Shown here one piece after another: positions 18,052-58,516 of a stretch of 64,000 bases of DNA (position 1 is its first letter; each line of letters opens with the position of its first letter). The position numbers were made by a program, and so were the translations under genes. The notes under the pieces were generated by a model. The model saw only the letters and a program-made list of their open reading frames with translations. It was not told the origin of the DNA and did no database searches. The stretch is from assembly GCA_021824175.1 (NCBI GenBank), contig JAKALP010000023.1, forward strand, positions 1 to 64,000. The letters are read 5' to 3'. The DNA is from Deltaproteobacteria bacterium (lineage in GTDB: Bacteria; Desulfobacterota; Desulfobacteria; Desulfobacterales; Desulfosarcinaceae).

Positions 18052-19984
18052 TCATGAGAGAGTTAGTTTGTGCGCTTTGTTACGGGTTTCATTCTCCGCC
18101 GTTACCCGGATGGCGCGACGGCCCTGAACCGGGCATTCATGCTCGCATACCCCGCAACCAATGCATCGGCTTGGATCCACATAGGGTTGTTGGAGGCGGA
18201 TATAAATGGTGGCGGATTGGCCGGAATAATCGGAAGTCGATCGATCGCCCCCCGGAGCCAGGGTGATAGAGTCGTTGGTGTTGGCGAGGATTGGGATGGG
18301 GTCCGAACCTGGGATGCGGCAAAGATAGTCGCCGGTGTTGTATTTATTCGGCAGCATATCGGAGGCATCCAAAACAATGAGATTGCCCTCCATCTTTTTG
18401 ATGGTTTTGCGGCCGTCGCGAACCGGTTGCAGTACTTCGCGGGTGAAGATGGCCTTGGGGCTGACCGGGCAGTTCTCCTGGCACACAATGCAAGGGGTGT
18501 CCATGGCCCAGGGCAGGCAGCGGCCGCGGTCTAAAAAGGCCGTGCCAATACGGATCGGCCCTTGATCGGAAAATGGGCCTTGGCCCGTTCGTTCCGCCAC
18601 TGTCAACGGTCGGATGGCCGCCGTGGGACAGATCTGACTGCAGGCCACGCAGTTGTGCTGGCAACCGCTGGTGCCGGTACGAAAGTCAAGCACGGGCGTC
18701 CAAAGCCCCTCAATTCCGCTCTCAAAGCTTGCCGGATGGATGACGTTGGTGGGGCAGATGCGCATGCATTGGCCGCACTTGATGCAGCGGGAGAGAAAAT
18801 CGGTTTCGGCCAGGGCGCCGGGCGGGCGGACGACGGCCGGATTCCAGTTCGCTCCGGCCTTGCCGGTCAGGCGCAGCATGGGAACGGTAATAAATCCGGC
18901 AGTGATTGCGGTGACGACTTGGCGCCGGGTCAAATCGGGGGAGGCCACCTCACCGGCCGCGCAAGATTGCAACTGATAGCTCATGACGCCATGGCCGCAC
19001 TGGTTCAGGCAATTCAAGCAAAGAACACATTCGTTGGATTGGATGGTTTGGGTCGGCCGACAGGCGCCTTCACAATCTCTTTCGCATTGGAGACAATTCT
19101 TGCAGGGCACATCTTTCTTACCGATGCGCCATATGCTCCACCGGCTGAGAAGACCGAACAAGGCGCCCAAGGGGCAGATGAACCGGCAGTAAAAACGCGG
19201 GATGCGCAGACAGAGCAACGTAAACAGCACAAAAAGAGCGCCGATGAAAAATGCGCCCGGATAGACCCGGGGGGAGTCGGTCAGAATTTGCAGTGGTGCA
19301 TCCAGCAAAGGCAGCAACGCCATATTGATCGAGCGGTGCATCAGGGCAATGGGGTCCAAAAGACCAGATTGCAGCGAAGCGGCCAGCCATCGGCTGTGGG
19401 GAAAGAGAAGATCCAGGAGAGTGCCGACGAGGACGATGGACGCGCAAAAGAAGAAGAGATCCTTGCGCAGTTCCATCAATTTCCACCGGTAGAGCAGGCT
19501 TAACAAAACAGTGCCTGTTATCAACCAGAACCAGAAGATGACGGGTGTTTGATGGGCGGATCGGAACAACCACTGCAGCAAATCGGCCGATGCGGCCGCC
19601 AGCAGAAACAGCAATACTCCATATTTGATCTTCTGGCCGGGATGCGGCCGGTTGCGCGCGATTTTTTCGGCTGCTTTCAAGCCACGTTTGCCCAAATACC
19701 CCACAAACTGCTGCCAGGCGCCAAAGGGGCAGAGCCAGCCGCAGAAAAAGCGACCGAACAAAAGTCAGGACGATGGTGAGCACCCCCCACAGCAATCCCG
19801 CATAAAGGGTGTGGGTGGCCAGCAGTACTCCCAGACCGTTAAGTGGGTCCAGTTGCAGCAGCCAGTTGACGGGCCAGCCGCGCAGCTGCCACCACTTCTC
19901 TCCCAGGGTGGTGGCGATGCAGAACCACATGAATAGAGAGAAGAAGAAGATTTGGGTGAGGCGGCGAGTTGTTATTAAGCGCAT
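18052..19984 (-). pseudogene. NapH/NosR-type membrane polyferredoxin, frameshifted
   Basis: The minus strand encodes one protein in two frames. From the ATG at 19984 (MRLITTRRLTQIFFFSLFMW) the frame runs through the first membrane spans to GVLTIVLTFV. It then loses similarity, while another frame starts FGRFFCGWLCPFGAWQQFVG and continues about 560 residues to 18052. Removing one A from the AAAA run at 19760-19763 restores VLTLFGRFFCGWLCPFG, the family pattern. The downstream part has further spans, CXXCXXXC clusters (CKNCLQCERDCEGAC, CIKCGQCMRICPTN, CIGCGVCEHECPVQ) and a Tat-like internal stretch. It should carry electrons across the membrane to the aldo/keto reductase or DUF362 partner. This is either a real one-base mutation or a sequence error. 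Confidence 0.85.
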
Positions 19985-39349: not shown

Positions 39350-39622
39350 ATGGATTATTGGCGCAAACCGCTGGATGCTGAAGAAATCAATGTGTCCCAG
39401 GGCGAGGTTCACATCATCGAAGACCGTTGTAAGGGGTGCGGTTACTGTATCGAATTTTGTCCCAAGGACATTTTGGCATTTTCCATCCGCTTCAATAAAA
39501 AAGGATATCACCCCCCCGAAGTAGTGGGGACGGAAAAGTGCGTGAATTGCCACTATTGCGAGATCATCTGCCCGGAGTTTGCGATTTATTCGGTGGAAAT
39601 TTCCACTGCAAAAGAAGGATAG
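39350..39622 (+). CDS. korD: 2-oxoacid:ferredoxin oxidoreductase delta (ferredoxin) subunit
   Basis: 90 residues preceded by CAGGAGGTGA. Two 4Fe-4S motifs are seen: DRCKGCGYCIEFCPKDIL and EKCVNCHYCEIICPEFA. The sequence between them (FNKKGYHPPEVVG) is characteristic of the delta subunit of 2-oxoglutarate-type oxidoreductases. It passes electrons from the alpha-beta catalytic core to free ferredoxin. An AT-rich hairpin element separates it from the alpha gene. Whether the enzyme uses 2-oxoglutarate or a branched 2-oxoacid cannot be settled by eye. Confidence 0.9.
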   Translation: MDYWRKPLDAEEINVSQGEVHIIEDRCKGCGYCIEFCPKDILAFSIRFNKKGYHPPEVVGTEKCVNCHYCEIICPEFAIYSVEISTAKEG

Positions 39623-39842: not shown

Positions 39843-40997
39843 ATGAAACCAGCAGTACTTACCGGCGAACACTACATGACTGGCGACGAAGCCTGTGCCG
39901 AAGGCGCCCTGGCAGCCGGCTGCCTCTTTTTCGGGGGCTATCCTATTACCCCGGCCACCGAAATCGCCGAGCATATGTCGGAACGCTTGCCCGGCGTGGG
40001 AGGCACCTTCATCCAGATGGAGGATGAAATTGCGGCTATCGCCTCGGTGCTGGGCGCAGCATGGGCCGGTCAAAAAAGCATGACTGCCACTTCCGGTCCG
40101 GGCTTCAGCCTGATGATGGAAAATATCGGTCTGGCCGCCTGTACCGAGACTCCCTGCGTGGTAGTCAATGTGCAGCGCGCCGGTCCCTCCACGGGTCTGC
40201 CCACCATGGGCGCCCAGGGCGATATGATGCAGGTGCGCTGGGGCTCCCACGGCGATTATGAGATTATCGCCCTGGCGCCTTGTTCGGCCCAGGAGATCTT
40301 TTATCAGACCATCACGGCCTTTAACCTGAGCGAGCGCTACCGAACGCCGGTCTTTGTCATGACCGACGAAATCATCGGCCACATGAGCGAGAAAGTCATC
40401 ATTCCGCCGGCCGATCAGATCAAGACCGAGTGGCGGCCCAAGCCCCAGGGCCGCAAGGATCGTTTCCTTTTATATAAGCCCGGGCCCAATGGCGTGGCCC
40501 CCATGCCCGCGGCCGGCGAGGGGTATAATGTGCACGTGACCGGCCTGACCCATGATGAAAAAGGCTATCCGGTGATGTCGGTGGAGGCCCAGCACCAGAT
40601 GATGACGCGCATTAAGCGCAAAATCCTGGGCAACCTGGATGATATCATCATGACCGAAAGCCACCAGCTCGAGGATGCCGAAATCGTGCTGGTCTCCTAT
40701 GGTATTTCGGCGCGTACCTGCCTGGCGGCCACGCAGCAGGCGCGCGGCATGGGATTGAAGGTGGGATTTCTGCGGCTTATCACCATCTGGCCCTTTGCCG
40801 AAGCCCAGATTCAGGCTTTGGCCCAACGGGTCAAGGGCTTTGTGACGGTTGAGATCAATCTGGGGCAGATCCACCTGGAGGTGATGCGTTCGGCTATGGG
40901 CAAAGTCCCGTGCCATCTGGTGGGCCACCATGGCGGCACCATTATCTCCCCTGACCAGGTATTGGCCAAAATCAAGGAGGCATTTCCATGTCCCTAA
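39843..40997 (+). CDS. korA: 2-oxoacid:ferredoxin oxidoreductase alpha subunit
   Basis: 384 residues. The N-terminal domain has MTGDEACAEGALAAGCLFFG, GYPITPATEIAEHM and TATSGPGFSLMMENIGLAA. The C-terminal part includes VGFLRLITIWPFAEAQIQAL and VTVEINLGQIHLEVMRSAMG. There is no fused gamma domain. With the beta subunit it forms the TPP enzyme that decarboxylates a 2-oxoacid with CoA, yielding acyl-CoA, CO2 and reduced ferredoxin. Its end overlaps the beta gene by ten bases. KOR (2-oxoglutarate) is favoured over VOR because a KorD-type ferredoxin is present, but this is a family-level call. Confidence 0.92.
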   Translation: MKPAVLTGEHYMTGDEACAEGALAAGCLFFGGYPITPATEIAEHMSERLPGVGGTFIQMEDEIAAIASVLGAAWAGQKSMTATSGPGFSLMMENIGLAACTETPCVVVNVQRAGPSTGLPTMGAQGDMMQVRWGSHGDYEIIALAPCSAQEIFYQTITAFNLSERYRTPVFVMTDEIIGHMSEKVIIPPADQIKTEWRPKPQGRKDRFLLYKPGPNGVAPMPAAGEGYNVHVTGLTHDEKGYPVMSVEAQHQMMTRIKRKILGNLDDIIMTESHQLEDAEIVLVSYGISARTCLAATQQARGMGLKVGFLRLITIWPFAEAQIQALAQRVKGFVTVEINLGQIHLEVMRSAMGKVPCHLVGHHGGTIISPDQVLAKIKEAFPCP

Positions 40998-41830
40998 CTG
41001 CCCTCGCAAAAAATGGGGCTGTGCCCGATCATCCCTTGGAGGATCTGATCCGCTCCGACCGCATCCCTCACATCTGGTGCCCTGGCTGCGGCATCGGAAC
41101 AGCCTTTGCTGCCTGCCTGTCGGCCATGAAGGCCAGCGGCATCGATTTGCAGACCATCTGCATGGTGTCGGGCATCGGCTGTTCGGGCCGGGCCGCCGGT
41201 TATGTGAAACTCGATTCGTTTCACACCACCCACGGCCGGGCCATTCCCTTTGCCACCGGACTGAAGCTGGGCAACCCCAAGCTCAACGTGGTGGTCTTCA
41301 GCGGCGATGGCGATCTGTTTGCCATCGGCGGCAACCATTTTATACATGCGGCCCGGCGCAATATCGATTTGACCGTGATCTGCCTCAACAACCTCAACTA
41401 CGGCATGACCGGCGGCCAGGTGGCGGCCACCACGCCCTTCCTGGCGCGCACCACGACCACGCCGGCCGGCAATCCCGAGGCGCCGTTCAATCTGCCGCTG
41501 TTGGCCTGGGCCGCGGGCGCCACCTACGTGGCGCGCTGGACCATCCTGCACACCCGCGAGCTGACCGAGTGCATCCAGAAAGCCATGAAGAAAAGCGGTT
41601 TCTCCTTTGTGGAAGTATTGGGCCCCTGCCCGGTCAACTATGGTCGGCGCAACAAGGAGAAATCGTTGCAGACCCTCAAGCTCTACCAGGAGCAGACCAT
41701 CATCCGCAACAACGCCGACCCCACGGACCTGGAAGTAGATTTCAGCAAGAAAGTAGTATTGGGTGAGTTTGTGGACAAGGAGCGTTCGACGTGTATTGAG
41801 AATTACGATAAGACATGCAGGTTGATGTGA
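40988..41830 (+). CDS. korB: 2-oxoacid:ferredoxin oxidoreductase beta subunit
   Basis: 280 residues. Fe-S/TPP features: HIWCPGCGIGTAF, MVSGIGCSGRAAGYV, the TPP-Mg motif VFSGDGDLFAIGGNHFIHAA ending with NNLNYGMTGGQVA, and GPCPVNYGRRN. It binds thiamine diphosphate and the cluster next to it. The ten-base overlap with korA points to coupled translation. A second AT-rich hairpin element separates it from the gamma gene. Confidence 0.94.
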   Translation: MSLTALAKNGAVPDHPLEDLIRSDRIPHIWCPGCGIGTAFAACLSAMKASGIDLQTICMVSGIGCSGRAAGYVKLDSFHTTHGRAIPFATGLKLGNPKLNVVVFSGDGDLFAIGGNHFIHAARRNIDLTVICLNNLNYGMTGGQVAATTPFLARTTTTPAGNPEAPFNLPLLAWAAGATYVARWTILHTRELTECIQKAMKKSGFSFVEVLGPCPVNYGRRNKEKSLQTLKLYQEQTIIRNNADPTDLEVDFSKKVVLGEFVDKERSTCIENYDKTCRLM

Positions 41831-42004: not shown

Positions 42005-42580
42005 ATGTATAAACAAATAACCATCACCGGTTTCGGCGGTCAGGGCGTGGTGCTGGCCGGCAAGATCCTGGGCCAGGCCGCGGCCATTGAAGACAAGCTG
42101 GAGAGCACGCTGGTGCAGTCTTATGGTCCTGAGTCACGCGGCGGCGCCTGCAGCGCCCAGGTGACCATCGCCGACGGGCCCATTTACTTCCCCTACATTC
42201 AGAACCCCGACATCCTGGTGTGCATGTCCCAATCAGGCTATGACAAACAGTATCCCACCATAAAAAAAGAGGGCGTGCTGGTCATCGACCAGGACTTGGT
42301 CAAGCCGGTGGATGAACGCGAGCATTTCGCCATTCCCTGCACCCGATTTGCCGAGGAGCTGGGCAACAAGATGATGGCCAATATCATCATGATCGGATTC
42401 TTTACGGCCATCACCGGCGTGGTGACCCAGGAGGCGGCCCGCAACACGGTGCAGGGGTCGGTGCCCAAGGGCACGGAGCAGAAGAATCTCAAGGCCTTTG
42501 ACCGGGGGTGGGAGTTCGCCCAGGCCACCCTTAAAGGGCGCAGGCACAAGGCGGCCGGCCAGGTAGGAGTGGTGGCATGA
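42005..42580 (+). CDS. korC: 2-oxoacid:ferredoxin oxidoreductase gamma subunit
   Basis: 191 residues. The family pattern is ITGFGGQGVVLAGKILGQAA near the N-terminus, then SYGPESRGGACSAQVTIAD, ILVCMSQSGYDKQY and a region ending MIGFFTAITGVVTQEAARNT. It completes the KOR enzyme. It overlaps the next gene by four bases (ATGA), tying the oxidoreductase to the large GltD/HdrA-like protein in one transcript and supporting a shared electron-transfer role. Confidence 0.93.
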   Translation: MYKQITITGFGGQGVVLAGKILGQAAAIEDKLESTLVQSYGPESRGGACSAQVTIADGPIYFPYIQNPDILVCMSQSGYDKQYPTIKKEGVLVIDQDLVKPVDEREHFAIPCTRFAEELGNKMMANIIMIGFFTAITGVVTQEAARNTVQGSVPKGTEQKNLKAFDRGWEFAQATLKGRRHKAAGQVGVVA

Positions 42581-45500
42581 AAACAACGAAGAACCGGTTG
42601 CACAGCGTGCTGATTCTGGGCGCCACGCCCGAAGGGGTGGCAGCGGCCAATAAACTGGGAGAGTTGGGCGTGCCCATCACTCTGGTGGATCGGGCCGCCA
42701 ACCTGGATCAAAAGCTCAATGAGGATATCTATCGCCTGGAATCGGGCGTGCCCTTTAACTATGCCCACCGGCCGGGTCTGATCCGGATCATGCGCAACAG
42801 CAACATCCGCTGTCTGCTGCCGGCCGAAATCCGTTCGATCAAACACAGCCAGCAAGGGTTCCGGGTTCAGATCGATAAGACCGCCACCTATGTGGATGCG
42901 GGCCGCTGCACGTTGTGCGGCCGTTGCGCCGAAGCCTGCCCGGTGTGCGGCGGTCACGACCATCGTCCCATTCAGATCAACGATCGCATGGCGTTGCCGG
43001 GGCGGGCCGTAATCGACAAACGGCAACAGCCGTTGTGCCAGGTCAACTGCCCCTTGGGCGTCAATGTGCAGGGCTACATGGCGTTGACTGCCGTCGGCCG
43101 TTATGAAGAGGCCCTGGCGCTGATCCGGCAAAACAACGTGCTGCCCGCGGTGTGTGGCCGCATCTGCACCCATCCGTGCGAAGCCGCCTGCCGCCGGGGT
43201 GAAAGAGACGGTGCGCTGGCCATTCGCGATATCAAGCGATTCGTGGCCGATCACAACCGCGCGGCCGGCCAATCTTCTGCCAAAGTGGAAAAACCGTCCA
43301 AGTCCGAATCCATCGCCATCGTGGGCTCGGGTCCGGCCGGCCTGGCCGCGGCCACTGATCTGGCCCGGCAAGGCTATGCGGTCACCATCTATGAAAAAGA
43401 ATTACTGCCCGGCGGCCTGCTGCGTTATGGGGTCGGCCCCCATCGCCTGCCCCGGCAGGTGCTGGAGGCGGAAATCGCCGCCATCCAGGCCGAAGGGGTT
43501 CAGATCGTCACCAACCATCCCGTGAGTTTGCCCCAGGGCCTGATAGAACTGCGCCGGCAGCATCGGGCCGTGATCGTCGCCGCTGGCTCCTGGGCCGACC
43601 GGCGCCTGGGGATTGAAGGTGAAAATTTTAAGGGTGTGGAGGGGTGCCTCTCCTTTTTGAATCGTTTCTATCGCGGTGAAGTCAAATCCCTCTCCGGTCC
43701 GGTGGCCGTGATCGGCGACGGCAACGCGGCCTTTGATCTGGCCCGGGTGCTGCACCGGCTGGGGGCGGCGGTGACCATCGTCTCCTGGTTTGCCCAGGAC
43801 GAAATTCCAGCGGATGCCGATGAAGTGGAGGCGGCCCTGGCCGAAGGCATTACCATTGTGGACCGCCGTCAGGTGGTGGCCTTTCTGGGCAACGATGGTC
43901 AATTGCAAGCCTTGCGCTTGCAAGCCACCCAGCCCGGCCCCCCCGATGCCAAAGGGATTTGCTGGCCCGTGGTCGTGCCGGGTGCTGCGGCGACCGACCT
44001 GCGGTTTGAACACGCCTTTGTCGCCATCGGCCAGGCCGGAGCTTACGGCACCTTGCGCGAAACCGGCGGCCTGAACGTGGATGCCAGAGGGCTGTTGGGC
44101 GTGGACGACCAGGGGCGCACAGCCATGGATGGAATTTTTGCGGCCGGCGATGCAGCCACCGGTGCCTCCTCGGTGGTGCAGGCCATGGCCGATGGCCGCC
44201 GGGTGGCCTTTGCCGTGATGCGGGAAATCAATGGCGCCATGGCGGTTCAGCAGATTCATCCGGTGGCTGTGCGGCCGGAAGCACGGGACTTTGATCCGGT
44301 GGCGGCTGATCTGCCAGTGCGGCCCAGGGCCATCATGCCCGAAATGCCGGCGGCCCAGCGCCACGGCGGGTTTGCCGAAGTAGCTCTGGGATTGGAAGAA
44401 TCCCAGGCCCAAACCGAAGCCGGCCGCTGCCTGCAATGCGGCAGTTGCGCCCAGTGCCTGGCCTGTTTGCCGGCCTGTGCGGCCAACCAAGCCATTCGCC
44501 ACGATGATGCGGCCCAGACCATTTTTGAAAACGCCGGCGTGGTGATCGTGGCTGATCCGGAGATGGCGCCAAGTCTCAAAGGCGATGACGTGATCCGGGC
44601 CTATGGACCGGCCAGCGCCAAAACCGATGTACACGCCATGATGGTGCGTGGCTTTGCCGCCGCGGCCAGGGCCATGGTGCTGCTGCGGGCCAACGGCATG
44701 CCGGTAAAAGGCCGGGGCGTGGCCTTTGTGCCGCCGGATGCCGGTCTGGACCCCCAGATCCGCATCGGCGTGTTTGCCTGCCGCTGCAACGACTCCTTTG
44801 GTTGGTCACCGGCCATGAGTGCATTTTTGGACGAGCTGAAGCAGCTGCCCGATATCATCCACACCGAAGTATTGACCTCGGCTTGCATTCCCGAGGGCAT
44901 CCAGCGCATCGTGGACAGCGTGCGGGACAAAGGCCTCACCCGCCTGGTGCTGGCCTCGTGCGTCTGCTGCCCGTTGAACTTTGTGTGCAGCGCCTGCACC
45001 GATCAGCGCAGCCGTCTGAAGCGCGGGCTCTTCGAAGGCACCGGCATCAGCCGTTCCATGGTGCAGACTTGCAATCTGCGCGGAGAAGTACTGCGCCACC
45101 TGATCCGCGATGAAGCATTGGCCGTAGGCTATTTTAAAGGCATCGTGACCCGCAGCATCGGCCGGGCCCGCAAGCTGATGCCTTTCCCGGCGCCAGTGCG
45201 CCGCTATAATTTTACCACGGCGGTGATTGGCCAGACCGAAGCCGCCAGCAGCGCCGCCCTCACCCTGGCCCAGGCCGGCTATGAAGTATTGATGTTCGGC
45301 TCAGCCAAGAATTCTCTGGCCGCGGCGCCGCTCCATCCATCGATTTTTGCCTTCGAAGGATCGGCCGTGGATACCGTGAGTGGCACCCTTGGCAATTTTC
45401 AGATACACGCGAATCTACCGGACGGCGAGCGCACTTTCACGGTGGGCGGCGTCATCCTGGGCGAAAAGTCGCGCAACATCGCCATTTACAGGCCCCACGA

Positions 45501-45957
45501 CGATTTGCCCAGCATGAAGGTTCAGGCTCGCGCCCAGAAAGAGGGCGTGTCGGACGTGCCGTTCATCTATCCCGGCGGCACTTCCATTTCCGGATTATTC
45601 CTGGCGGACCCGCCCGGCCTGCAGATCTCCAAGCGCACCAAGGGCGAAGCCGCGGCCATCCTGGCGGCGGCGGCCATGCCCAGGGGACCGCGCCAGAGCC
45701 GGGGCTTTTCCGTGGTGATCAAGGAGGCGTTGTGCCGGGGCTGCGGGCGCTGCCTGAAAAGCTGCCCTTACCAGGCGGTCAATCTCAAAGCCAATGCCGC
45801 CGGCGGTTTCAGCGCCGAGGTGGACGATGCCCTGTGCAAAGGGTGCGGCAATTGTATTTCGGTCTGCCCGTCCAATGCCGCGGACAGTCCCTTCCGCGAT
45901 CAGGCCTATCTGGAGCAGACCCTGGAAGAGTTGCTCACTACTTCCAGCAGGAGTTAA
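42577..45957 (+). CDS. NAD(P)-binding GltD-like / HdrA-like multidomain Fe-S flavoprotein
   Basis: 1126 residues. Visible in order: a dinucleotide-fold start (VLILGATPEGVAAANKLG); 4Fe-4S motif CTLCGRCAEACPVC near 110; a GltD-like Cys region (CQVNCPLGVNVQGYM, CGRICTHPCEAACRRGE, ~155-210); FAD motif VGSGPAGLAAATDLA near 248; a second nucleotide motif VIGDGNAAFDLARVL near 377 (NAD(P)H site); GIFAAGDAATGASSVV; a Cys cluster CLQCGSCAQCLACLPAC near 620; from ~728 a segment like the HdrA N-terminus (IGVFACRCNDSF, ASCVCC); and two ferredoxin motifs near 1052 and 1087 (CRGCGRCLKSCPYQA, CKGCGNCISVCPSNA). It resembles HdrL/NfnB-type fusions, plausibly linking NAD(P)H to ferredoxin and the Hdr proteins. 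The precise partner set is inferred. Confidence 0.85.
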   Translation: MKTTKNRLHSVLILGATPEGVAAANKLGELGVPITLVDRAANLDQKLNEDIYRLESGVPFNYAHRPGLIRIMRNSNIRCLLPAEIRSIKHSQQGFRVQIDKTATYVDAGRCTLCGRCAEACPVCGGHDHRPIQINDRMALPGRAVIDKRQQPLCQVNCPLGVNVQGYMALTAVGRYEEALALIRQNNVLPAVCGRICTHPCEAACRRGERDGALAIRDIKRFVADHNRAAGQSSAKVEKPSKSESIAIVGSGPAGLAAATDLARQGYAVTIYEKELLPGGLLRYGVGPHRLPRQVLEAEIAAIQAEGVQIVTNHPVSLPQGLIELRRQHRAVIVAAGSWADRRLGIEGENFKGVEGCLSFLNRFYRGEVKSLSGPVAVIGDGNAAFDLARVLHRLGAAVTIVSWFAQDEIPADADEVEAALAEGITIVDRRQVVAFLGNDGQLQALRLQATQPGPPDAKGICWPVVVPGAAATDLRFEHAFVAIGQAGAYGTLRETGGLNVDARGLLGVDDQGRTAMDGIFAAGDAATGASSVVQAMADGRRVAFAVMREINGAMAVQQIHPVAVRPEARDFDPVAADLPVRPRAIMPEMPAAQRHGGFAEVALGLEESQAQTEAGRCLQCGSCAQCLACLPACAANQAIRHDDAAQTIFENAGVVIVADPEMAPSLKGDDVIRAYGPASAKTDVHAMMVRGFAAAARAMVLLRANGMPVKGRGVAFVPPDAGLDPQIRIGVFACRCNDSFGWSPAMSAFLDELKQLPDIIHTEVLTSACIPEGIQRIVDSVRDKGLTRLVLASCVCCPLNFVCSACTDQRSRLKRGLFEGTGISRSMVQTCNLRGEVLRHLIRDEALAVGYFKGIVTRSIGRARKLMPFPAPVRRYNFTTAVIGQTEAASSAALTLAQAGYEVLMFGSAKNSLAAAPLHPSIFAFEGSAVDTVSGTLGNFQIHANLPDGERTFTVGGVILGEKSRNIAIYRPHDDLPSMKVQARAQKEGVSDVPFIYPGGTSISGLFLADPPGLQISKRTKGEAAAILAAAAMPRGPRQSRGFSVVIKEALCRGCGRCLKSCPYQAVNLKANAAGGFSAEVDDALCKGCGNCISVCPSNAADSPFRDQAYLEQTLEELLTTSSRS

Positions 45958-45960
45958 ACC

Positions 45961-47538
45961 ATGCAAGATTTCAAGATCATCCTTTTTCTGTGCAACTGGG
46001 GTCCCCATGTGGCCTTTCAGACCTTGCAGGAGCAACGCGCCGATATCCCGCCGGAGATCAAGATGGTGCGCATTCCGTGCAGCGGACGCATCACCAAGGC
46101 GTTGCTCTTCAAACCCTTTGAGATGGGCGCCGACGGCGTTTTACTGCTGGGTTGCCACCCCGGCGCCTGCCGTTATGGCACCGGCACCGATGCAGCCTCT
46201 GAAAACACGGCGGAGACGCGCCAAATTCTGGATCTGATGGGCCTGGACGCACGACGGCTGCAATTGGGCACTTTTCTTCCGGACCAACCCCAGGCCCTGC
46301 TGGCGTTTCTCAAGGAGTTCACCGGCCGGATCCGGCAGTTGGGCAAAAGTCCCATCAGTGCTCCAGCGGCGGCGCAACCCCAGGAAAGCGAACAAAGTCT
46401 CGAAGCCATCATGAGCGCCCACGATGTCTTTGCCTGCCAGGATTGCGGCAAATGCACTTCAGCCTGTTCGCTGGCCCTGGCCGGCAAATCCTTCTCGCCG
46501 CGCTTCGTGGCTTCGGAGATCATCGCCGGCCGCGCTGACCGTCCTGAAGTGCGCGCCGCCGTGCACGCGTGTCTGACTTGCGGTACATGTTACGAGCGTT
46601 GCCCGTCGGCCGTCAATTTTCCGGAGTTCATCAAGGCCATGCGCATTTACTACCATGGTCGCACCTTGTCCAGCGCGCCGGCCCACGGCGGCTTCTTCCA
46701 GAGCATGATGCGCGCCATGACCGCCGAAGAGTTAGTGCCCCGGCGCTGGGAAGATCTTCCCGAAAACATCCGGGTCCGCAAGGAGAGTCCGATTCTCTTC
46801 TTTGGTGGTTGCGCGGCCTACTTCGATATCTTCTTCCACAAATATCTGGGGGCGCAAACCCGCCAGATTCTGGAAGACAGTTTACGACTACTCAACTTCT
46901 TCGATGTGGAGCCGATGGTTCTGCCCAACGAACGCTGCTGTGGCCACGATTTGCTGTGGTCCGGCGACCGCGCTAATTTCTTGCGTCTGGCCCGGCTCAA
47001 CGCCCAGGCCATTGCCGCCAGTGGAGCGCAAGAGGTGATCACGGCGTGCCCCGAATGCTTTCATACCCTGGGCCAGGAGTATGTCCGCCATGGCGTGACC
47101 CTGCCGGTGAAAGTCACCCACATCCATGAGTATCTGGAGCGCGAAATCGGCAAAGGAGCCGTGGCCTTCAAACCCCTGGAAGCCAAAGTCACTTTCCAGG
47201 ACGCCTGCCGCCAGAGCCGCTTCAACGGCCAGTCCCAGCTGCCGCGCAAACTGCTCAAACAGATGCTCGGCAATGGCGGCCAGGCCGCGGCCGAGGAGGC
47301 TGTCACGGTATGCTGCGGCAACAGCGCCTGGACCGGCTGTGATGCCTACAGCAAACGCATGCAGGTGCTGCGCCTGGAGCGGGCCAAACAAGCGGGCAGC
47401 GAGCTGATGATCACGGCCTGCCCCAAGTGCCAGATCCACCTGCGTTGCGCCATGGACGATGTGCTGCGGGGTGAAGAATTGCAGCTGGAGATGATGGATC
47501 TGACCAGCGTTATCGCGAGAAGTATTTATTGGGCGTAG
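45961..47538 (+). CDS. MvhD-HdrC-HdrB fusion protein
   Basis: 525 residues. Residues 1-125 are MvhD-like (LFLCNWGPHVAFQT, RIPCSGRITKALLF, LLGCHPGACRYGTG). HdrC-type 4Fe-4S motifs lie near 159 and 203 (CQDCGKCTSACSLA, CLTCGTCYERCPSA). Two CCG domains of HdrB follow: CCGHDLLW near 325 with CPECFH near 362, and CCGNSAWTG near 450 with CPKCQ near 487. HdrB subunits hold the non-cubane clusters that reduce disulfides or similar. In MvhD the usual first CxxC is CNWC; here it is CNWG, so the 2Fe-2S site may be altered. It starts three bases after the previous stop, in the same operon, and the physical fusion of three subunits is notable. Confidence 0.88.
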   Translation: MQDFKIILFLCNWGPHVAFQTLQEQRADIPPEIKMVRIPCSGRITKALLFKPFEMGADGVLLLGCHPGACRYGTGTDAASENTAETRQILDLMGLDARRLQLGTFLPDQPQALLAFLKEFTGRIRQLGKSPISAPAAAQPQESEQSLEAIMSAHDVFACQDCGKCTSACSLALAGKSFSPRFVASEIIAGRADRPEVRAAVHACLTCGTCYERCPSAVNFPEFIKAMRIYYHGRTLSSAPAHGGFFQSMMRAMTAEELVPRRWEDLPENIRVRKESPILFFGGCAAYFDIFFHKYLGAQTRQILEDSLRLLNFFDVEPMVLPNERCCGHDLLWSGDRANFLRLARLNAQAIAASGAQEVITACPECFHTLGQEYVRHGVTLPVKVTHIHEYLEREIGKGAVAFKPLEAKVTFQDACRQSRFNGQSQLPRKLLKQMLGNGGQAAAEEAVTVCCGNSAWTGCDAYSKRMQVLRLERAKQAGSELMITACPKCQIHLRCAMDDVLRGEELQLEMMDLTSVIARSIYWA

Positions 47539-47731: not shown

Positions 47732-50158
47732 ATGAAACCATCAACCACTTCTATCACCCCCGGCACGGCCGCCGACGAACCCCGCATCGGCGTCTATGTC
47801 TGCCACTGCGGCAAGAATATCGCCCAGACCGTGGATTGCGACGGCATCGCGGCCCAATTGGCCAGTCTGCCTGACGTGGCCGTGGCCAAGGGCATCGGCT
47901 ATGCCTGCAGCGAGCCTGGCCAGCGCGAGATCCGCGAAGACATCGAAACCCTGGGCCTTAACCGGGTCGTTATCGGCTCCTGTTCGCCGCGCTTGCATGA
48001 ACCGACCTTCCGCCAGATGCTGATCGCGGCGGGTCTTAATCCCTATCTGCTGGAGATGGCCAACCTGCGCGAGCAGTGCAGTTGGGTGCACATGAAAGAG
48101 CCCCAGGCGGCCACGGCCAAAGCCCTGGACCTGATGAAGATGGGCGTGGCCAGGGTACGGCGACTGCAAGCCCTGAGCGAGCCCAAGCTGCCCATGACCC
48201 AGCGCGCCCTGGTGATCGGCGGCGGCGTGGCTGGTATCCAGGCGGCCCTGGATATGGCCGACAACGGCTACGAAGTGGTCATGGTGGAGCAGCAGCCCTC
48301 CATCGGCGGCGTCATGGCCCAGCTGGACAAGACCTTTCCCACCATGGATTGCTCCATCTGAATTTTGGGTCCGAAGATGACGGATGCCGGTCGGCATCCC
48401 CGGATCAAGATTCATACCCTGAGCCAGGTGGTGGATATCAAAGGCAACGTGGGCAATTTCGACGTCAAGATCGTCAAGAAGGCCCGCTATGTGGATGAAA
48501 AAGAGTGTACCGCCTGCGGCGATTGCGCCAAGGTGTGCCCTGTGGTGCGGCCCGACGAGTTCAACCTGGGACTCTCTTCACGGCGCGCCATTTACTCTCC
48601 GTTTCCCCAGGCCGTGCCGTCGGCTTATGTGATCAACTCCCACGAGTGTTTGGGCCACAATCCCGTAGTATGTAGTAAATGTCTGGATGCCTGTGAGAAG
48701 AAATGCATTGATTTTCACATGTCCGATGAGACCTTCACCGAACGGGTCGGCACCATCGTGGTGGCCACGGGGCTTAAGCCCCACGATCCGCGCGCCTTGG
48801 ATGAATACGGCTTTACGCGCTTTGAAAATGTGCTCACCAGCCTGGAGTTCGAGCGCCTGGTCAATGCCGGCGGTCCCACCCAGGGCCATTTGATCCGCCC
48901 CACGGACCGCAAGCCGCCCAAATCGGTGGGCTTTATCCAATGCGTGGGGTCGCGCTCGGCCCGGCGCGGCAAATCCTACTGCTCCAACATCTGCTGCATG
49001 AACACCATCAAAAGCACCTTGGTGCTCAAGGAGCACCATCCGGACATGGCGGTGAAAGTCTTCTACATCGACATCCGGGCCTTCGGTAAAGGGTTCGAAG
49101 ATCTCTACACCCGCTCCCGGCGCCAGGGCGTGCATTACGTACGCGGCTTACCCGGTCATGTGGAAGAACTTCCCAACGGCGGTCTGCGGGTGGCGGTGGA
49201 GAATATCGCCAGTGGCGCTTTGGAGTTCTTCGAGCTGGACATGCTCGTATTGGCCATCGGCATCGAGCCGGCGTCCGGCACCCAGCGCTTGCAGGAGATG
49301 CTGGGCTTGCAATTGACCCCCGACGGTTTTTTCCTGGAGGCCCATCCCAAGCTGCAGCCCGTGGATGCCGCCACCCGGGGCATCTTCTACGCCGGTTGCG
49401 CCGAGGGCCCCAAGGATATTAAGGAGAGCGTCACCCAGGCCTCGGCCGCGGCCGTGCGCGCCATCCGCCTGATGCAGGCCGATCAGATCACGGCCGAAGC
49501 CATTACTTCCGAAGTCATCACCGAGCAGTGCAAAGCCTGCGGCAAGTGCGCCGAAGTGTGCCCGTACAATGCCATCACGGTCGATCCCAAGAAGAAGATT
49601 CCAGCCCAGATCGCCACCGCCGCGTGTACCGGCTGCGGCACCTGCGCGGCTGAATGCCCGTTCGGCGCTATCACCATGAATCACTTCACTGACCAGCAGA
49701 TCTATGAGCAGATTGATACCCTGCTGGCGGAACGGCCCGAAGAGAAGATCCTCACCTTTGCCTGCAACTGGTGCTCCTATGCCGGCGCCGACTATGCCGG
49801 GGTGTCACGGCTGCAGTATCCGCCCAATGCCCGCCTGATCCGCACCATGTGCTCGGGCCGGGTGGACGAAGCCTTTATCTGGCACGGCTTCAAGAAGGGC
49901 GCGCCCGTGATTCTGGTCAGCGGCTGCCACATCGGCGACTGCCACTACATCAACGCCAATCACTGGACCGTCAAGCGCGTGGAAAACGTGCGCAAGAAGA
50001 TGGAAAAACGCGGCCTGCGTCCTGAACGCCTGCAACTGGAGTGGGTCAGCGCGGCCGAGGGCGTGCGTTTCGCCCAGGTGATGACCCGCATGGAGCAGTT
50101 GCGCCAAGGCGTTTCGTCCCAGGAGATTGCCGAAACGGTGACATTATTAGAGAAGTAG
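47732..50158 (+). CDS. hdrA: Selenocysteine HdrA fused to MvhD domain
   Basis: Read as one 808-residue protein with UGA (48359-48361, codon 210) decoded as selenocysteine. The two halves are in the same frame, and the UGA falls inside FPTMDCSI-U-ILGPKMTDAG, where HdrA proteins have a conserved Cys (DCxxCILxPKM). The N-terminus has GVYVCHCGKNIAQTV and SCSPRLHEPTFRQML; the FAD site is VIGGGVAGIQAALDMA; an internal 4Fe-4S motif is CTACGDCAKVCPVV; HdrA Cys motifs are CVGSRSARRGKSYCSNICC; two ferredoxin motifs are CKACGKCAEVCPYNA and CTGCGTCAAECPFGA. The C-terminus is MvhD (FACNWCSYAGADYAGVSR, MCSGRVDEAF, SGCHIGDCHYINAN). HdrA carries the bifurcating FAD; MvhD and HdrB/C are its electron partners. 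It is the last gene of the KOR-Hdr cluster. Confidence 0.93.
48359..48399 (+). promoter_or_regulatory. In-frame UGA and bacterial SECIS hairpin
   Basis: Twenty bases after the UGA, GGATGCC (48382-48388) and GGCATCC (48393-48399) form a perfect 7-bp stem closed by the four-base loop GGTC. GGUC in the apical loop at this distance matches the SelB-binding hairpin of bacterial selenoprotein genes such as fdhF. The hairpin lies within the coding sequence, as bacterial SECIS elements do. Confidence 0.85.
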
Positions 50159-50308
50159 TAAAACTGTTGCGGCCTTATCAGCGAACGTGGATATTCGCAT
50201 GATCCAGCGATGCCACGTGTCCGAGTAGTGCACTTTTATTTTGACTTTTGGACCCCCAAGGTCTATCTATGCGAGTGATTTTACGACATTTTGATCAGGA
50301 GTGGGGCC

Positions 50309-51355
50309 ATGAATAAGCCTTTGACATATGTGGATGCCGGTGTCGATATCGACAAGGCCGATAAGTTGGTGCATACGATCAAGGCCATTGCCCAGAAGAC
50401 TCGGGTATCGGGCGTCATGGGCGAAATCGGAGGTTTCGGCGGCCTGTTTTCGTTGAGCACGGCCAATATGGAGAATCCGGTGCTGGTAAGCTCCACGGAT
50501 GGCGTGGGCACCAAACTCAAAATCGCCTTCATGATGGACAAGCACGACACGGTGGGCATCGATCTGGTGGCCATGAGCGTAAACGATGTGGCCGTGCAGG
50601 GCGCCAAGCCGCTCTTCTTTTTGGACTATCTGGCGACCGGCCGCATTGATGGCGAGCGGATCACCCAGATCATCCAGGGCATCGGTAAGGGCTGCCAGGA
50701 GGCGCGCTGCGCTCTGATCGGCGGTGAAACCGCGGAGATGCCGGGCTTTTATCAGGACGGTGAATATGATCTGGCCGGATTTGCCGTGGGCATCGTGGAC
50801 AACAGCAAGATCGTGGACGGCTCGGAAATCCAGGTGGGGCACCAGATCATCGGCATCGCCTCCAACGGCGTGCACAGCAACGGCTTTTCCATGGTGCGCA
50901 AGATCTGCTTTGATCTGCTTAAGCTCACCGTGAACTCCCACGTGCCCGAGCTAGGCAAAACCCTGGGCGAAGAGTTGCTGTCCCCCACGCGCATCTACTC
51001 CGAGACCATCCAGAACCTGGTGCGCGGCCTGCCCATCAAGGGCTTGGCCCACATCACCGGCGGCGGCATCGTGCTCAATACCCTGCGCATTATTCCCCAG
51101 GCCTGCGGTATCGCGCTCAAGCGCGACAGCTGGGAAGTGCCGCCCATTTTCACTTTCCTCAAAGAGGCCGGCAAGGTGGAAGAACATGAGATGCTGCGCA
51201 TTTTCAACAATGGCATCGGTCTGGTGGCCGTGGTGCCGGAAAACGCGGTGCAGGATGTGCTGGCGCGGTTGTCGGCCATGAAGGAAAAGGCCTTTGTCAT
51301 CGGTTCGATCGTCGAACGGCCCGCTTCGGACGAGGAACGTTTCCATTGGGTCTGA
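50309..51355 (+). CDS. purM: Phosphoribosylformylglycinamidine cyclo-ligase
   Basis: 348 residues from the ATG at 50309, preceded by AGGAGTGGGG. The AIR synthase pattern is clear: LTYVDAGVDIDKADKLV, TRVSGVMGEIGGFGGLF, LVSSTDGVGTKLKIAF, IGGETAEMPGFYQDGEYDLA, HSNGFSMVRKI and HITGGGIVLNTLRI. It converts FGAM to aminoimidazole ribotide with ATP in purine synthesis. No other purine gene is near. A short open frame and a strong hairpin separate it from tsaD. Confidence 0.96.
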   Translation: MNKPLTYVDAGVDIDKADKLVHTIKAIAQKTRVSGVMGEIGGFGGLFSLSTANMENPVLVSSTDGVGTKLKIAFMMDKHDTVGIDLVAMSVNDVAVQGAKPLFFLDYLATGRIDGERITQIIQGIGKGCQEARCALIGGETAEMPGFYQDGEYDLAGFAVGIVDNSKIVDGSEIQVGHQIIGIASNGVHSNGFSMVRKICFDLLKLTVNSHVPELGKTLGEELLSPTRIYSETIQNLVRGLPIKGLAHITGGGIVLNTLRIIPQACGIALKRDSWEVPPIFTFLKEAGKVEEHEMLRIFNNGIGLVAVVPENAVQDVLARLSAMKEKAFVIGSIVERPASDEERFHWV

Positions 51356-55806: not shown

Positions 55807-55879
55807 CTTATAGCGTTGGCACAGGATTGGTTCGCTTTAGGCCGGAAACATCCATGATGCGAGGTTGGCGATATCCACC

Positions 55880-58516
55880 ATGATCCAACGGTTGCGCACC
55901 TTTTTAAGCAAGTTCCGCAAAAGCATTCAGGCGCACAGCGACGAAGAGGTCGAAGCGCTGCGCGTTGGATTCAAGGAGCGCTACCATCAGTTCAAATTGT
56001 TGCTCAACGCCAACAACCGCGCTCTGGAGTTGATGTCCGAGATTGAACGGGCCCTGCAAGGCAGCACTCCCTTCGGCATGCATTTTGTGCGCTCCCAGTG
56101 CACGCGCATCTCCACGGATGTATTTCAGATCATCAAACACATCAACGCCCTGGCTCCCAATAAGTACAGCGTCCTTTTCGAACGTTTCAAAGAGATTCAA
56201 CACCAGCTCAATCCGTTTGTTCATCCATCGACTTGCGAAATTAAAGGACCCTTGGTGATGCCCATGGCCACGGTCGATCGCGGCAGCGCGGATCAAACCG
56301 GGCCTAAAATGGCCAACCTGGCCGAAGTAGCCAAACAACTGCAATTAAAAATCCCCGATGGATTTGCCATTACGGCCGCCGCTTTCGAGTGCTTCATGGC
56401 TTCGGGTGACCTGCAGGCCGAAATCGACCGGCGCATCCAAGCCGCCGAGATCGAACGGCCCGATCATCTGTATGCCTTGAGCATCTCCATCCAGCAATTG
56501 ATTATCGAGGCGCCCGTACCTTCCCATTTGTCCCAGGCTATTGCCAAAGCCATGGAGCAATTGGAAGCCGCCAGCGGCCGGAGCGTGTTCCTGGCGGTGC
56601 GCAGCAGTGCTTTGGGCGAGGATTTGGCCGAAACGTCCTTTGCCGGCCAGTATCGCTCGGTCCTCAATGTGGGCAAAGAGACGCTCTTTACCGCCTATAA
56701 AGAAGTACTGGCCAGCAAATACAGTCTGCCGGCCATGACCTACCGGTTGCAACGGGGTATCCGCGACGAAGATGTGCCCATGTGCGTCGGTTGCCTGCGG
56801 ATGATCGATGCCAAGGCCGGCGGTGTCCTGTACACCCGCAACCCGGTAGATATCCGCGACGATACCATGATTATTCATGGCGCCTGGGGCTTGCCCAAGT
56901 CGGTGGTGGACGGCACCACGGTACCCGACCAATTCGTGATCCGCCGGGGCGACACCCTGGCCGTGGAGGCGAGCCAGATCCAGCACAAAGCCCAGCGCTA
57001 CGTCTGTTTTCCCGAAGAGGGGGTTTGTCGCATGGCGCTGACCGGACCTGAGGCGGATCAGCCGTGCCTGAGCGATGCCCAGGCCTTGGCCCTGGCTGAA
57101 ATGGGCCTGCGCATCGAAACGTATTATGGAACTGCCCAGGATATCGAGTGGGCGTTGGATGACGACGACCAGATCGTTCTGCTGCAATGCCGGCCTTTGA
57201 AGCAGATCAGCCCTGGCGCCAAGAACTTGCCGGCCGCGGACAGCCGCTGGTCCATCCGCGCCCAAGGCGGCCAAACCGCAAGCACCGGCGTGGCCGCGGG
57301 CAAAGTATTCATTGTTAACAAGGAGGCTGATGCCCTCCAATTCCCCAAAGGGGCCATCCTCGTGACCGCCCAAGCGCTACCGCGCTGGGCTATGCTGCTG
57401 AATCGGGCCGCGGCCGTAATCACCGAACAGGGCAGTCTGGCCGGTCATTTGGCCAATGTGGCCAGGGAGTTCCAAGTGCCGGCCATTTTTGGTTTGGAAG
57501 ATGCCACCCAGCACCTGAAGTCCAGCGAGTCAGTCACGGTGGATGCCAGCACCTGCAGGATTTATCATGGTCGCATCGAGGAATTGCTGGCGCTTCGCGA
57601 AGCACCGCGCAACCTCATGGCGGGCAGCCGGGTGTGGCAGATGCTCGACAACGCGGCGCGTCTGATCATTCCGCTGCATCTGCTCAATCCCGACAGTCCC
57701 GAATTTAAGGCCGACAAGTGTCGTACATTGCATGATATCACCCGTTTTTGTCATGAAAAAGCGGTACAGGAGATGTTTCGCTTCGGCAAAGAGCACCACT
57801 TCCCTGAACGTTCCAGCAAGCAACTGCATGCCCAGGTCCCCATGCAGTGGTGGGTGCTCAACCTGGACGACGGCTTTACCACTGAGGTGGACGGCCGCTT
57901 CGTGGAGTTGACCAATATCTGCTCCATCCCCATGCTGGCCTTGTGGGAAGGAATTGCCGCGCATCCCTGGGAGGGGCCGCCGCCGCTGGATGGCAAAGGC
58001 TTTGCTTCGGTGATGTTCCAGGCCACCACCAACAAGGCCTTGTTGCCCACGGTGCGCTCCACAATGACCAATCGCAATTACTTCATGATCGCCAAAAACT
58101 ACTGCAGCTTGCAATCGCGTCTGGGATTTCACTTCTCCATCATCGAATCTTTGGTCAGCGAGCGCACCAGCGAGAATTACATCAATTTCCATTTCAAAGG
58201 CGGCGGCGCCGATACCTCACGCAGGATCAAGCGGGTTCAGTTCATCAAGGAGATTTTGGAGCCTTACGGCTTCCGCATGACCATCAAGGAAGATCACCTC
58301 AACGCGCGCATCGAGCAGTACATCATGAGCACCATTGTCCAGTACTTGAAGATTTTGGGCTACTTGACTATCCATACGCGTCAACTGGATATGATCATGT
58401 CCAACCCCACCATGTTGAATCACTACCGCCAGAAGATCCTGGCCGGCATCGACGATATGCTGGCGGCCAAGGCCGTTGCCAGCGCCAAGCCGGAAATGCA
58501 ATCGGCGGGGTTGTAG
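55880..58516 (+). CDS. PEP-synthase-like phosphotransferase with novel C-terminal domain
   Basis: 878 residues from the ATG at 55880 (a TTG at 55865 is an alternative). Residues 1-130 are helical. A PEP-synthase ATP-grasp domain follows (KMANLAEVAKQLQLKIPDGF, AVRSSALGEDLAETSFAGQY, GVLYTRNPVDIRDDTMIIHG, AQDIEWALDDDDQIVLLQCR). Near 500-570 is the mobile phosphohistidine domain with GSLAGHLANVAREFQVPAIF, where PEP synthase has a GGxTSHAA-type motif. In place of the PEP-binding barrel, residues ~590-878 hold an unrecognised domain (WWVLNLDDGFTTEVDGRFVE, YCSLQSRLGFHFSIIESLVS). ATP-driven His phosphorylation is likely, but the acceptor is unknown. It follows the receiver-exporter cluster on the same strand, after a terminator. 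Confidence 0.82.
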   Translation: MIQRLRTFLSKFRKSIQAHSDEEVEALRVGFKERYHQFKLLLNANNRALELMSEIERALQGSTPFGMHFVRSQCTRISTDVFQIIKHINALAPNKYSVLFERFKEIQHQLNPFVHPSTCEIKGPLVMPMATVDRGSADQTGPKMANLAEVAKQLQLKIPDGFAITAAAFECFMASGDLQAEIDRRIQAAEIERPDHLYALSISIQQLIIEAPVPSHLSQAIAKAMEQLEAASGRSVFLAVRSSALGEDLAETSFAGQYRSVLNVGKETLFTAYKEVLASKYSLPAMTYRLQRGIRDEDVPMCVGCLRMIDAKAGGVLYTRNPVDIRDDTMIIHGAWGLPKSVVDGTTVPDQFVIRRGDTLAVEASQIQHKAQRYVCFPEEGVCRMALTGPEADQPCLSDAQALALAEMGLRIETYYGTAQDIEWALDDDDQIVLLQCRPLKQISPGAKNLPAADSRWSIRAQGGQTASTGVAAGKVFIVNKEADALQFPKGAILVTAQALPRWAMLLNRAAAVITEQGSLAGHLANVAREFQVPAIFGLEDATQHLKSSESVTVDASTCRIYHGRIEELLALREAPRNLMAGSRVWQMLDNAARLIIPLHLLNPDSPEFKADKCRTLHDITRFCHEKAVQEMFRFGKEHHFPERSSKQLHAQVPMQWWVLNLDDGFTTEVDGRFVELTNICSIPMLALWEGIAAHPWEGPPPLDGKGFASVMFQATTNKALLPTVRSTMTNRNYFMIAKNYCSLQSRLGFHFSIIESLVSERTSENYINFHFKGGGADTSRRIKRVQFIKEILEPYGFRMTIKEDHLNARIEQYIMSTIVQYLKILGYLTIHTRQLDMIMSNPTMLNHYRQKILAGIDDMLAAKAVASAKPEMQSAGL

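Follow-up and report, generated by a model that had tools for sequence, protein, structure and literature searches.

A predicted selenocysteine codon in an hdrA2 gene of the Desulfosarcinaceae and a second UGA-reading tRNA set in the same genome

The hdrA2 gene (47732-50158, forward strand) of a deltaproteobacterium of the Desulfosarcinaceae is very probably a genuine selenoprotein gene. It is located in a 64,000-nucleotide stretch of DNA, here called the window, which comprises positions 1 to 64,000 of contig JAKALP010000023.1 (assembly GCA_021824175.1). The gene is predicted with high confidence to encode an HdrA2-type flavin subunit in which UGA codon 210 (48359-48361) is read as selenocysteine (Sec), and on the evidence of sequence comparison this is by far the likeliest reading of the codon. 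Two apparently broken genes thereby become one conserved redox enzyme. The genome also encodes a second tRNA set of a type that is described to insert cysteine at UGA, which raises the possibility that Sec is not the only residue placed at this position.

The hdrA2 reading frame and its UGA codon

The gene appears as two open reading frames that share one frame, the first at 47732-48361 (209 aa, with TGA as its stop) and the second at 48365-50158 (597 aa, starting at TTG); solely the TGA at 48359-48361 separates them. This is the single TGA in a frame that is otherwise intact, and the coordinates and counts given in a preliminary description, which had read the two apparent genes as one frame split by UGA at codon 210, are correct. 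The read-through product consists of 808 residues and matches the NCBIfam HdrA2 model NF040770 over 18-798 with 1178.7 bits (cut-off 1100). It contains a full HdrA followed by a C-terminal MvhD domain, which is the arrangement that defines HdrA2 or type Ia HdrA; the fused MvhD domain of the preliminary description is recovered as a FlpD domain match at residues 673-789 (49748-50098), and its own motif, GCHIGDCH, carries Cys rather than Sec. The motif at codon 210 reads DCSI-U-ILGPKM and corresponds to the HdrA motif DCxxCILxPKM at whose Cys the UGA had been placed. In homologues this is a Cys position, being Cys in PDB 5odc and 8rvu and encoded by TGT in two related loci (L071 and L080). TGA serves as the stop of four out of ten window genes with a listed stop, so that UGA has not undergone a general reassignment.

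The UGA is highly conserved among relatives. In a first set of 33 related loci, 29 have TGA at the site and two have TGT, while one (L081) is too distant to align and one (L079) does not cover it. A second set, made up of 60 loci (31 of the 33 and 29 others, the distant L080 and L081 being left out) plus the window, has TGA at codon 210 in 59 of its 61 sequences, TGT in L071 and no coverage in L079. A sequencing error or a pseudogene would be another explanation of the codon, and most of the relatives compared are metagenome assemblies; however, the carriers of TGA at this same codon include isolates such as Desulfatitalea alkaliphila (L077) and Desulfogranum mediterraneum (L067), and such an origin is extremely improbable. 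The recurrence of TGA in dozens of independent assemblies in practice excludes a misread TGC or TGT at 48359-48361. At the level of the order, 39 of 118 genomes contain an HdrA2 match at E = 0 with one TGA, which was placed at codon 210 in 30 of them and is known in the other nine by the count of one TGA. Two of the 39 (G043 and G089) have an additional HdrA2 copy at E = 0 without TGA, and a third (G054) has a more distant TGA-free copy. At E 1e-150 the window genome (6.07 Mb in 61 contigs, 99.5% complete with 3.4% contamination) yields a single HdrA2 match, and it thus has no close Cys spare.

The same genome encodes all components of the canonical Sec pathway; a lack of selB or selC would have spoken against Sec. 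The selA gene is located on contig C61 (620 bits), canonical selB on C31 (379 bits) and canonical selC, with a UCA anticodon, on C32 (73 bits); two selD genes, both interrupted by one TGA, score above the cut-off. ARAGORN finds no tRNA in the window itself. Decoding of UGA210 would accordingly be expected to involve canonical SelA, SelB, SelC and SelD, directed by a hairpin immediately downstream of the codon. Among relatives selA was found in 45 of 45 genomes checked, namely all 39 with the one-TGA HdrA2 match and six others, and a search for UGA-hdrA2 genomes that lack a Sec pathway, as a sign of a Cys reading, found none. Of the 39, 36 have a canonical selC above 70 bits; the tRNA-Sec search gave no canonical selC for G074 and G041, and among the matches in G014 and G103 are canonical selC genes truncated by the end of a contig. 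A search with SelB* (see below) as the query at E 1e-50 left SelB unmatched in three of the 39 (G113, G028 and G078). Since some tRNA-Sec match is present in 111 of the 118 genomes of the order, the Sec machinery is common throughout, and its co-occurrence with UGA-hdrA2 is consistent with a Sec reading without discriminating in its favour.

The hairpin downstream of the UGA

A hairpin (48382-48399) begins 20 nucleotides past the UGA and consists of a perfect 7-bp stem (48382-48388 paired with 48393-48399) closed by a GGUC loop (48389-48392), exactly as the preliminary description had it. The constraints on bacterial SECIS elements set out in the relevant part of PMC13188914 are a loop of 3-9 nucleotides with a G among the first two, a stem of 4-16 bp, a distance of 16-37 nucleotides from the UGA and a minimum free energy of -7.5 kcal/mol or below. 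The hairpin in the window agrees with all of them, with a loop of 4 nucleotides, a stem of 7 bp, a UGA-to-loop spacing of 27 nucleotides and -11.5 kcal/mol. Chance alone produces SECIS-like hairpins fairly often: the same constraints are satisfied at 250 of 6556 control codon positions, 43 of which are equally stable, and in 1564 of 20000 synonymous shuffles, 328 of which are equally stable. The local 59-nucleotide fold of this single sequence is no more stable than its shuffles (z = -0.37), and Rfam at the gathering threshold gives no match in the whole window. Judged from this one sequence, the hairpin is no more than modestly unusual.

The comparison of relatives is decisive in this respect, and the pattern of conservation indicates that the hairpin is more than a product of chance. 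After removal of near-duplicates (97% or more), 51 of 55 TGA genes keep seven of the seven pairs and the remaining four keep six, the outermost pair being absent. The inner pair at codons 219/221 varies and is C-G in 35 genes, U-A in 13 and U.G in seven, never C.A (Fisher p 5e-8, uncorrected for relatedness). Only three of 364 testable columns are without synonymous change, codons 218, 220 and 222, and all three lie inside the hairpin. Covariation measured on 25 sequences is weak, its score being reached by 19 of 500 shuffles, and five of the seven pairs are invariant. A qualifying hairpin is present in four of four UGA-HdrA copies of the window genome to which the constraints were applied (that of the window and three others) and in none of five Cys sites in homologues. 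The same strict test is passed by three UGA-FdhA sites of the window genome and by neither its stand-alone MvhD UGA sites (0 of 3) nor its SelD UGA sites (0 of 2), which suggests that the test misses some likely selenoproteins.

The constraint on the hairpin also bears on the possibility that the UGA is a true stop and that two separate proteins are made, the second from the TTG at 48365. This start codon lies one codon past the UGA, and some termination is expected at Sec codons. However, the cut would fall inside a thioredoxin-reductase-like domain and would remove the site equivalent to Cys197 of HdrA; in addition, conservation extends over both halves in a single frame, and the hairpin shows synonymous constraint. 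Two separate products are therefore very unlikely.

Position of residue 210 and the KOR operon

Residue 210 aligns with Cys197 of methanogen HdrA (PDB 5odc, chain A). According to the relevant passages of PMC9012536, Cys197 of one HdrA ligates the N-terminal FeS cluster of its HdrA partner, in the branch that leads to ferredoxin, and in fused HdrA pairs the loss of Cys197 and that of the N-terminal domain complement each other. Sec210 is thus predicted to replace the Cys197-type ligand that is given in trans to the N-terminal cluster of the partner, so that selenium would be located at a putative cluster ligand shared by two subunits of a flavin-bifurcating enzyme and not at a substrate site. 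In window HdrA2 the N-terminal domain and U210 occur together, and the protein would form a pair with a second copy of itself. Three further HdrA genes of the window genome, on C10, C28 and C58 (L039, L040 and L041), have UGA at the same motif and encode long forms in which the U-bearing first half is without the N-terminal domain and the second half carries the N-terminal cluster domain; the order of the halves is reversed with respect to the ANME fusions described in that part of PMC9012536. A Cys-coded counterpart of these long forms is present on C22. All five UGA-HdrA sites examined appear from the alignment to put U at the trans-ligand position. Contig C28 also carries a cut-short HdrA fragment (L046, around 1875, minus strand) with DCAMU at the same site, the frame of which ends soon after the UGA.

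The preliminary description had pointed to an adjacent KOR operon, and KOR-type genes are present upstream of hdrA2, all on the forward strand. The first feature is a ferredoxin-like subunit of the OorD/KorD type (39374-39592), which scores below the family cut-offs and whose boundaries are those of the match rather than of a called gene. It is followed by korA, the alpha subunit of a 2-oxoacid:acceptor oxidoreductase (39843-40997; NF006412, 564.6 bits, over the cut-off), and by korB, the beta (TPP) subunit (40988-41830), and korC, the gamma subunit (42005-42580), both of which score over the Pfam cut-offs and below those of the NCBIfam models. The next two genes encode a GltD-like pyridine-nucleotide flavoprotein of 1126 aa (42577-45957), which also contains HdrA-like and ferredoxin parts and which we label HdrL-like, and a 525-aa protein composed of MvhD/FlpD, 4Fe-4S and two CCG domains of the HdrD/HdrB-like kind (45961-47538). 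In 18 of 33 related loci all six genes are found upstream of hdrA2 in the same order, and nine further loci have those upstream genes that fit before the contig end; L074 and L079 begin at hdrA2. The operon was not seen in four of the 33 (L069, L071, L080 and L081), of which L081 has almost no upstream sequence.

The operon is proposed to carry out flavin-based electron bifurcation or confurcation. KOR would exchange electrons between a 2-oxoacid and ferredoxin, HdrA2 would split or merge electron pairs at its FAD, the GltD-like protein would exchange electrons with NAD(P)H, and the CCG protein would hand electrons to a disulfide-type acceptor.

Related bacteria are already known to have UGA-containing hdrA genes of this type. 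Among published cases found, the nearest is Desulfococcus multivorans DSM 2059, in which hdrA (dmul_C02770/80) is split by UGA and has a SECIS (PMC5109826); as described there, it has in common with the window the UGA, the SECIS and two like-named neighbours. The identification of dmul_C02770/80 as hdrA1 is inferred from neighbouring locus tags; a word search of PMC5109826 finds neither 'Kor' nor 'oxoglutarate'. Relevant passages of PMC1794560 and PMC2702500 report Sec-containing HdrA, often in several copies, in Deltaproteobacteria and methanogens, within operons that contain frhD-frhG-frhA or a separate mvhD, and these passages do not include a fused MvhD with KOR. HdrA2 of the Methanosarcina acetivorans HdrA2B2C2 complex (HdrA2 or type Ia HdrA), as described in parts of PMC6019823 and PMC12054007, has the same domain order as window HdrA2. 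Window HdrA2 differs from it in being bacterial, in having Sec at the Cys197 position and in that no separate hdrBC was recognised among the operon genes scanned. The combination of a fused MvhD domain with a KOR operon, which the preliminary description had singled out, is thus present but not unique, since it recurs in relatives and a UGA-hdrA with two such neighbours has been published. What is added here, some of which may exist elsewhere in the literature, is the trans-ligand position of Sec, the synonymous constraint on the SECIS, the conservation of the KOR operon and a possible Cys reading.

Several other genes of the window were inspected. The gene downstream of hdrA2 (50291-51355) was first taken for selD and is purM (TIGR00878, 436.8 bits). 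An in-frame UGA at 19767 on the minus strand is probably not a selenoprotein site, as the frame upstream of it looks non-coding and a frameshift at a T run is likelier. It falls within 18052-19984 (minus strand), which encodes a 4Fe-4S membrane-type protein, presumably NosR/NapH-like, whose N-terminus seems to lie in another frame; the likely frameshift is at about 19750 near the T run and may be a sequencing error or a real mutation. In the 883-aa protein encoded by 55865-58516 (forward strand) two domains of PEP synthase are recognised, the nucleotide-binding and the mobile one, and no PEP-binding domain, about 140 N-terminal and 320 C-terminal residues being without a domain match.

A second UGA-reading tRNA and the genes around it

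The Sec reading of codon 210 proposed in the preliminary description is supported by the above, but the window genome contains a second set of UGA-reading components and Sec may not be the sole residue inserted. With the Rfam model RF01852 two tRNAs with UCA anticodons score over the cut-off in this genome. The second is located on contig C22 (173696-173781, 86 nucleotides), has U73-CCA and an A bulge in the T-stem, and is followed within 173696-176984 by selB* (640 aa) and then by cysS*, which matches only positions 2-414 of the 466 of its model. A U73, a UCA anticodon, an A bulge in the T-stem, a neighbouring selB* and a truncated cysS* are features of selC* tRNA-Cys in the relevant section of PMC7609411, and the C22 set shows these features of the selC*, SelB* and CysRS* of Mukai 2017 as presented in passages of PMC7609411 and PMC11415595. 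The known type combines an A1:U72 pair with a cysS* that lacks the anticodon-binding domain; the C22 cysS* match is cut short as stated, but the first pair of the tRNA reads A1-C72 where A1:U72 is given for Desulfobacterales (PMC7609411, same section). The tetranucleotide composition of C22 correlates with that of the window and of other contigs at 0.95 and 0.97, values for other stretches being 0.93-0.97, and hence gives no sign of a contaminant.

The product of selC* is described in passages of PMC11415595, and likewise of PMC7609411, as translating Sec UGA codons with Cys. It is therefore possible, albeit rather unlikely, that UGA210 has a dual reading, in which Sec is inserted when selenium is available and Cys when it is scarce, by means of the tRNA-Cys(UCA), SelB* and CysRS* encoded on C22. 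Such an arrangement would suit a genome that lacks a close Cys spare of HdrA2, and the selC* locus lies among Cys isoforms of other proteins (see below). On the other hand, it presupposes that SelB* recognises the hdrA2 hairpin, the first pair of the tRNA is A-C and not A-U, and selB* was detected in only nine of the 39 UGA-hdrA2 genomes, counting G012, where a divergent copy adjoins selC*. The congeners G099 and G116 are without selB* and have kept the same UGA-hdrA2, which indicates that the UGA site is independent of selB* and that Sec is the base reading. Among 20 stretches around weak tRNA-Sec matches, nine are selC*-like, the others being tRNAs for Leu (two), Ser (four) and Trp (two) and truncated canonical selC (three); selB* is found beside eight of the nine (the exception is L167), and cysS* lies beside selB* only in the window genome and G092.

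The surroundings of selC* were surveyed in 11 genomes with selC* or selB*, including G092, which has selB* and cysS* and no selC* call. Ten of these (all except G020) contain 22 FdhA genes over the family cut-off, 19 with one TGA and three without, the state of the site in L189 and L203 being taken from the TGA flag alone. The three TGA-free genes have Cys at the site and are located 125 bp, 2.7 kb and 12.5 kb from selC* (window genome, G016 and G074), whereas none of the 19 UGA-FdhA genes shares a contig with it at a distance of 20 kb or less, although breaks between draft contigs could hide neighbours. Three TGA-free FdhA relatives below the cut-off (G074 C102 and, in the window genome, C48 and C49) were excluded from the 22; they lie away from the island, and in the alignment their site shows no Cys and no Sec. 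Near selC* in G012, G015 and G020 there are also remote molybdopterin proteins (24-27% identity), which were not counted as FdhA. For stand-alone mvhD (open frame below 300 aa, at least 110 bits; n = 46), six of six genes within 20 kb of selC* are without TGA, while elsewhere nine of 40 are without and 31 of 40 have it. The association has a Fisher p of 6.5e-4 for FdhA and 5.3e-4 for mvhD, uncorrected for shared ancestry and linkage. HdrA sites of the Cys197 type that were found near selC* by motif search (window genome, G012, G043 and G074) have Cys in six of six cases, including the Cys HdrA2 of G043. Altogether Cys isoforms lie near selC* in five of the 11 genomes (window genome, G012, G016, G043 and G074). 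None was seen in the stretch examined in the other six, two of which (G018 and G020) offer little sequence to one side of the locus; this, and the fact that genes of one island are non-independent observations, tells against the dual reading.

It is tentatively proposed, and at present doubtful, that the C22 locus is a selenium-starvation island, which would combine ready-made Cys isoforms (FdhA, two MvhD and HdrA) with the means to convert the products of the remaining UGA genes to Cys proteins, so that UGA would have a conditional meaning in hdrA2 and other selenoprotein genes. The clustering of the selC* set with Cys isoforms suggests what selC* tRNAs may do physiologically in Desulfobacterota, in a concrete form that can be tested. 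The reviews PMC7609411 and PMC11415595 deal with selC* charging and UGA-to-Cys translation and state no such role in their relevant passages. No description of such an island was found in the literature search; Mukai 2017 and Vargas-Rodriguez 2018 lie outside that search and may contain one.

On C22 of the window genome (158000-182000; L037 and L038), selC*-selB*-cysS* stands among Cys isoforms of FdhA, of HdrA and, in two copies, of MvhD. Next come two reductases of the double-cubane-cluster type with their activase, and then a selD that contains UGA, and yedF. One or more of the double-cubane, activase and yedF genes are also near selC* in G010, G012, G015, G018, G020 and G074. In G043 a second, Cys-coded HdrA2 (L177; C1:1763971-1766340) is located 13.8 kb from selC*, and the UGA copy lies elsewhere in that genome.
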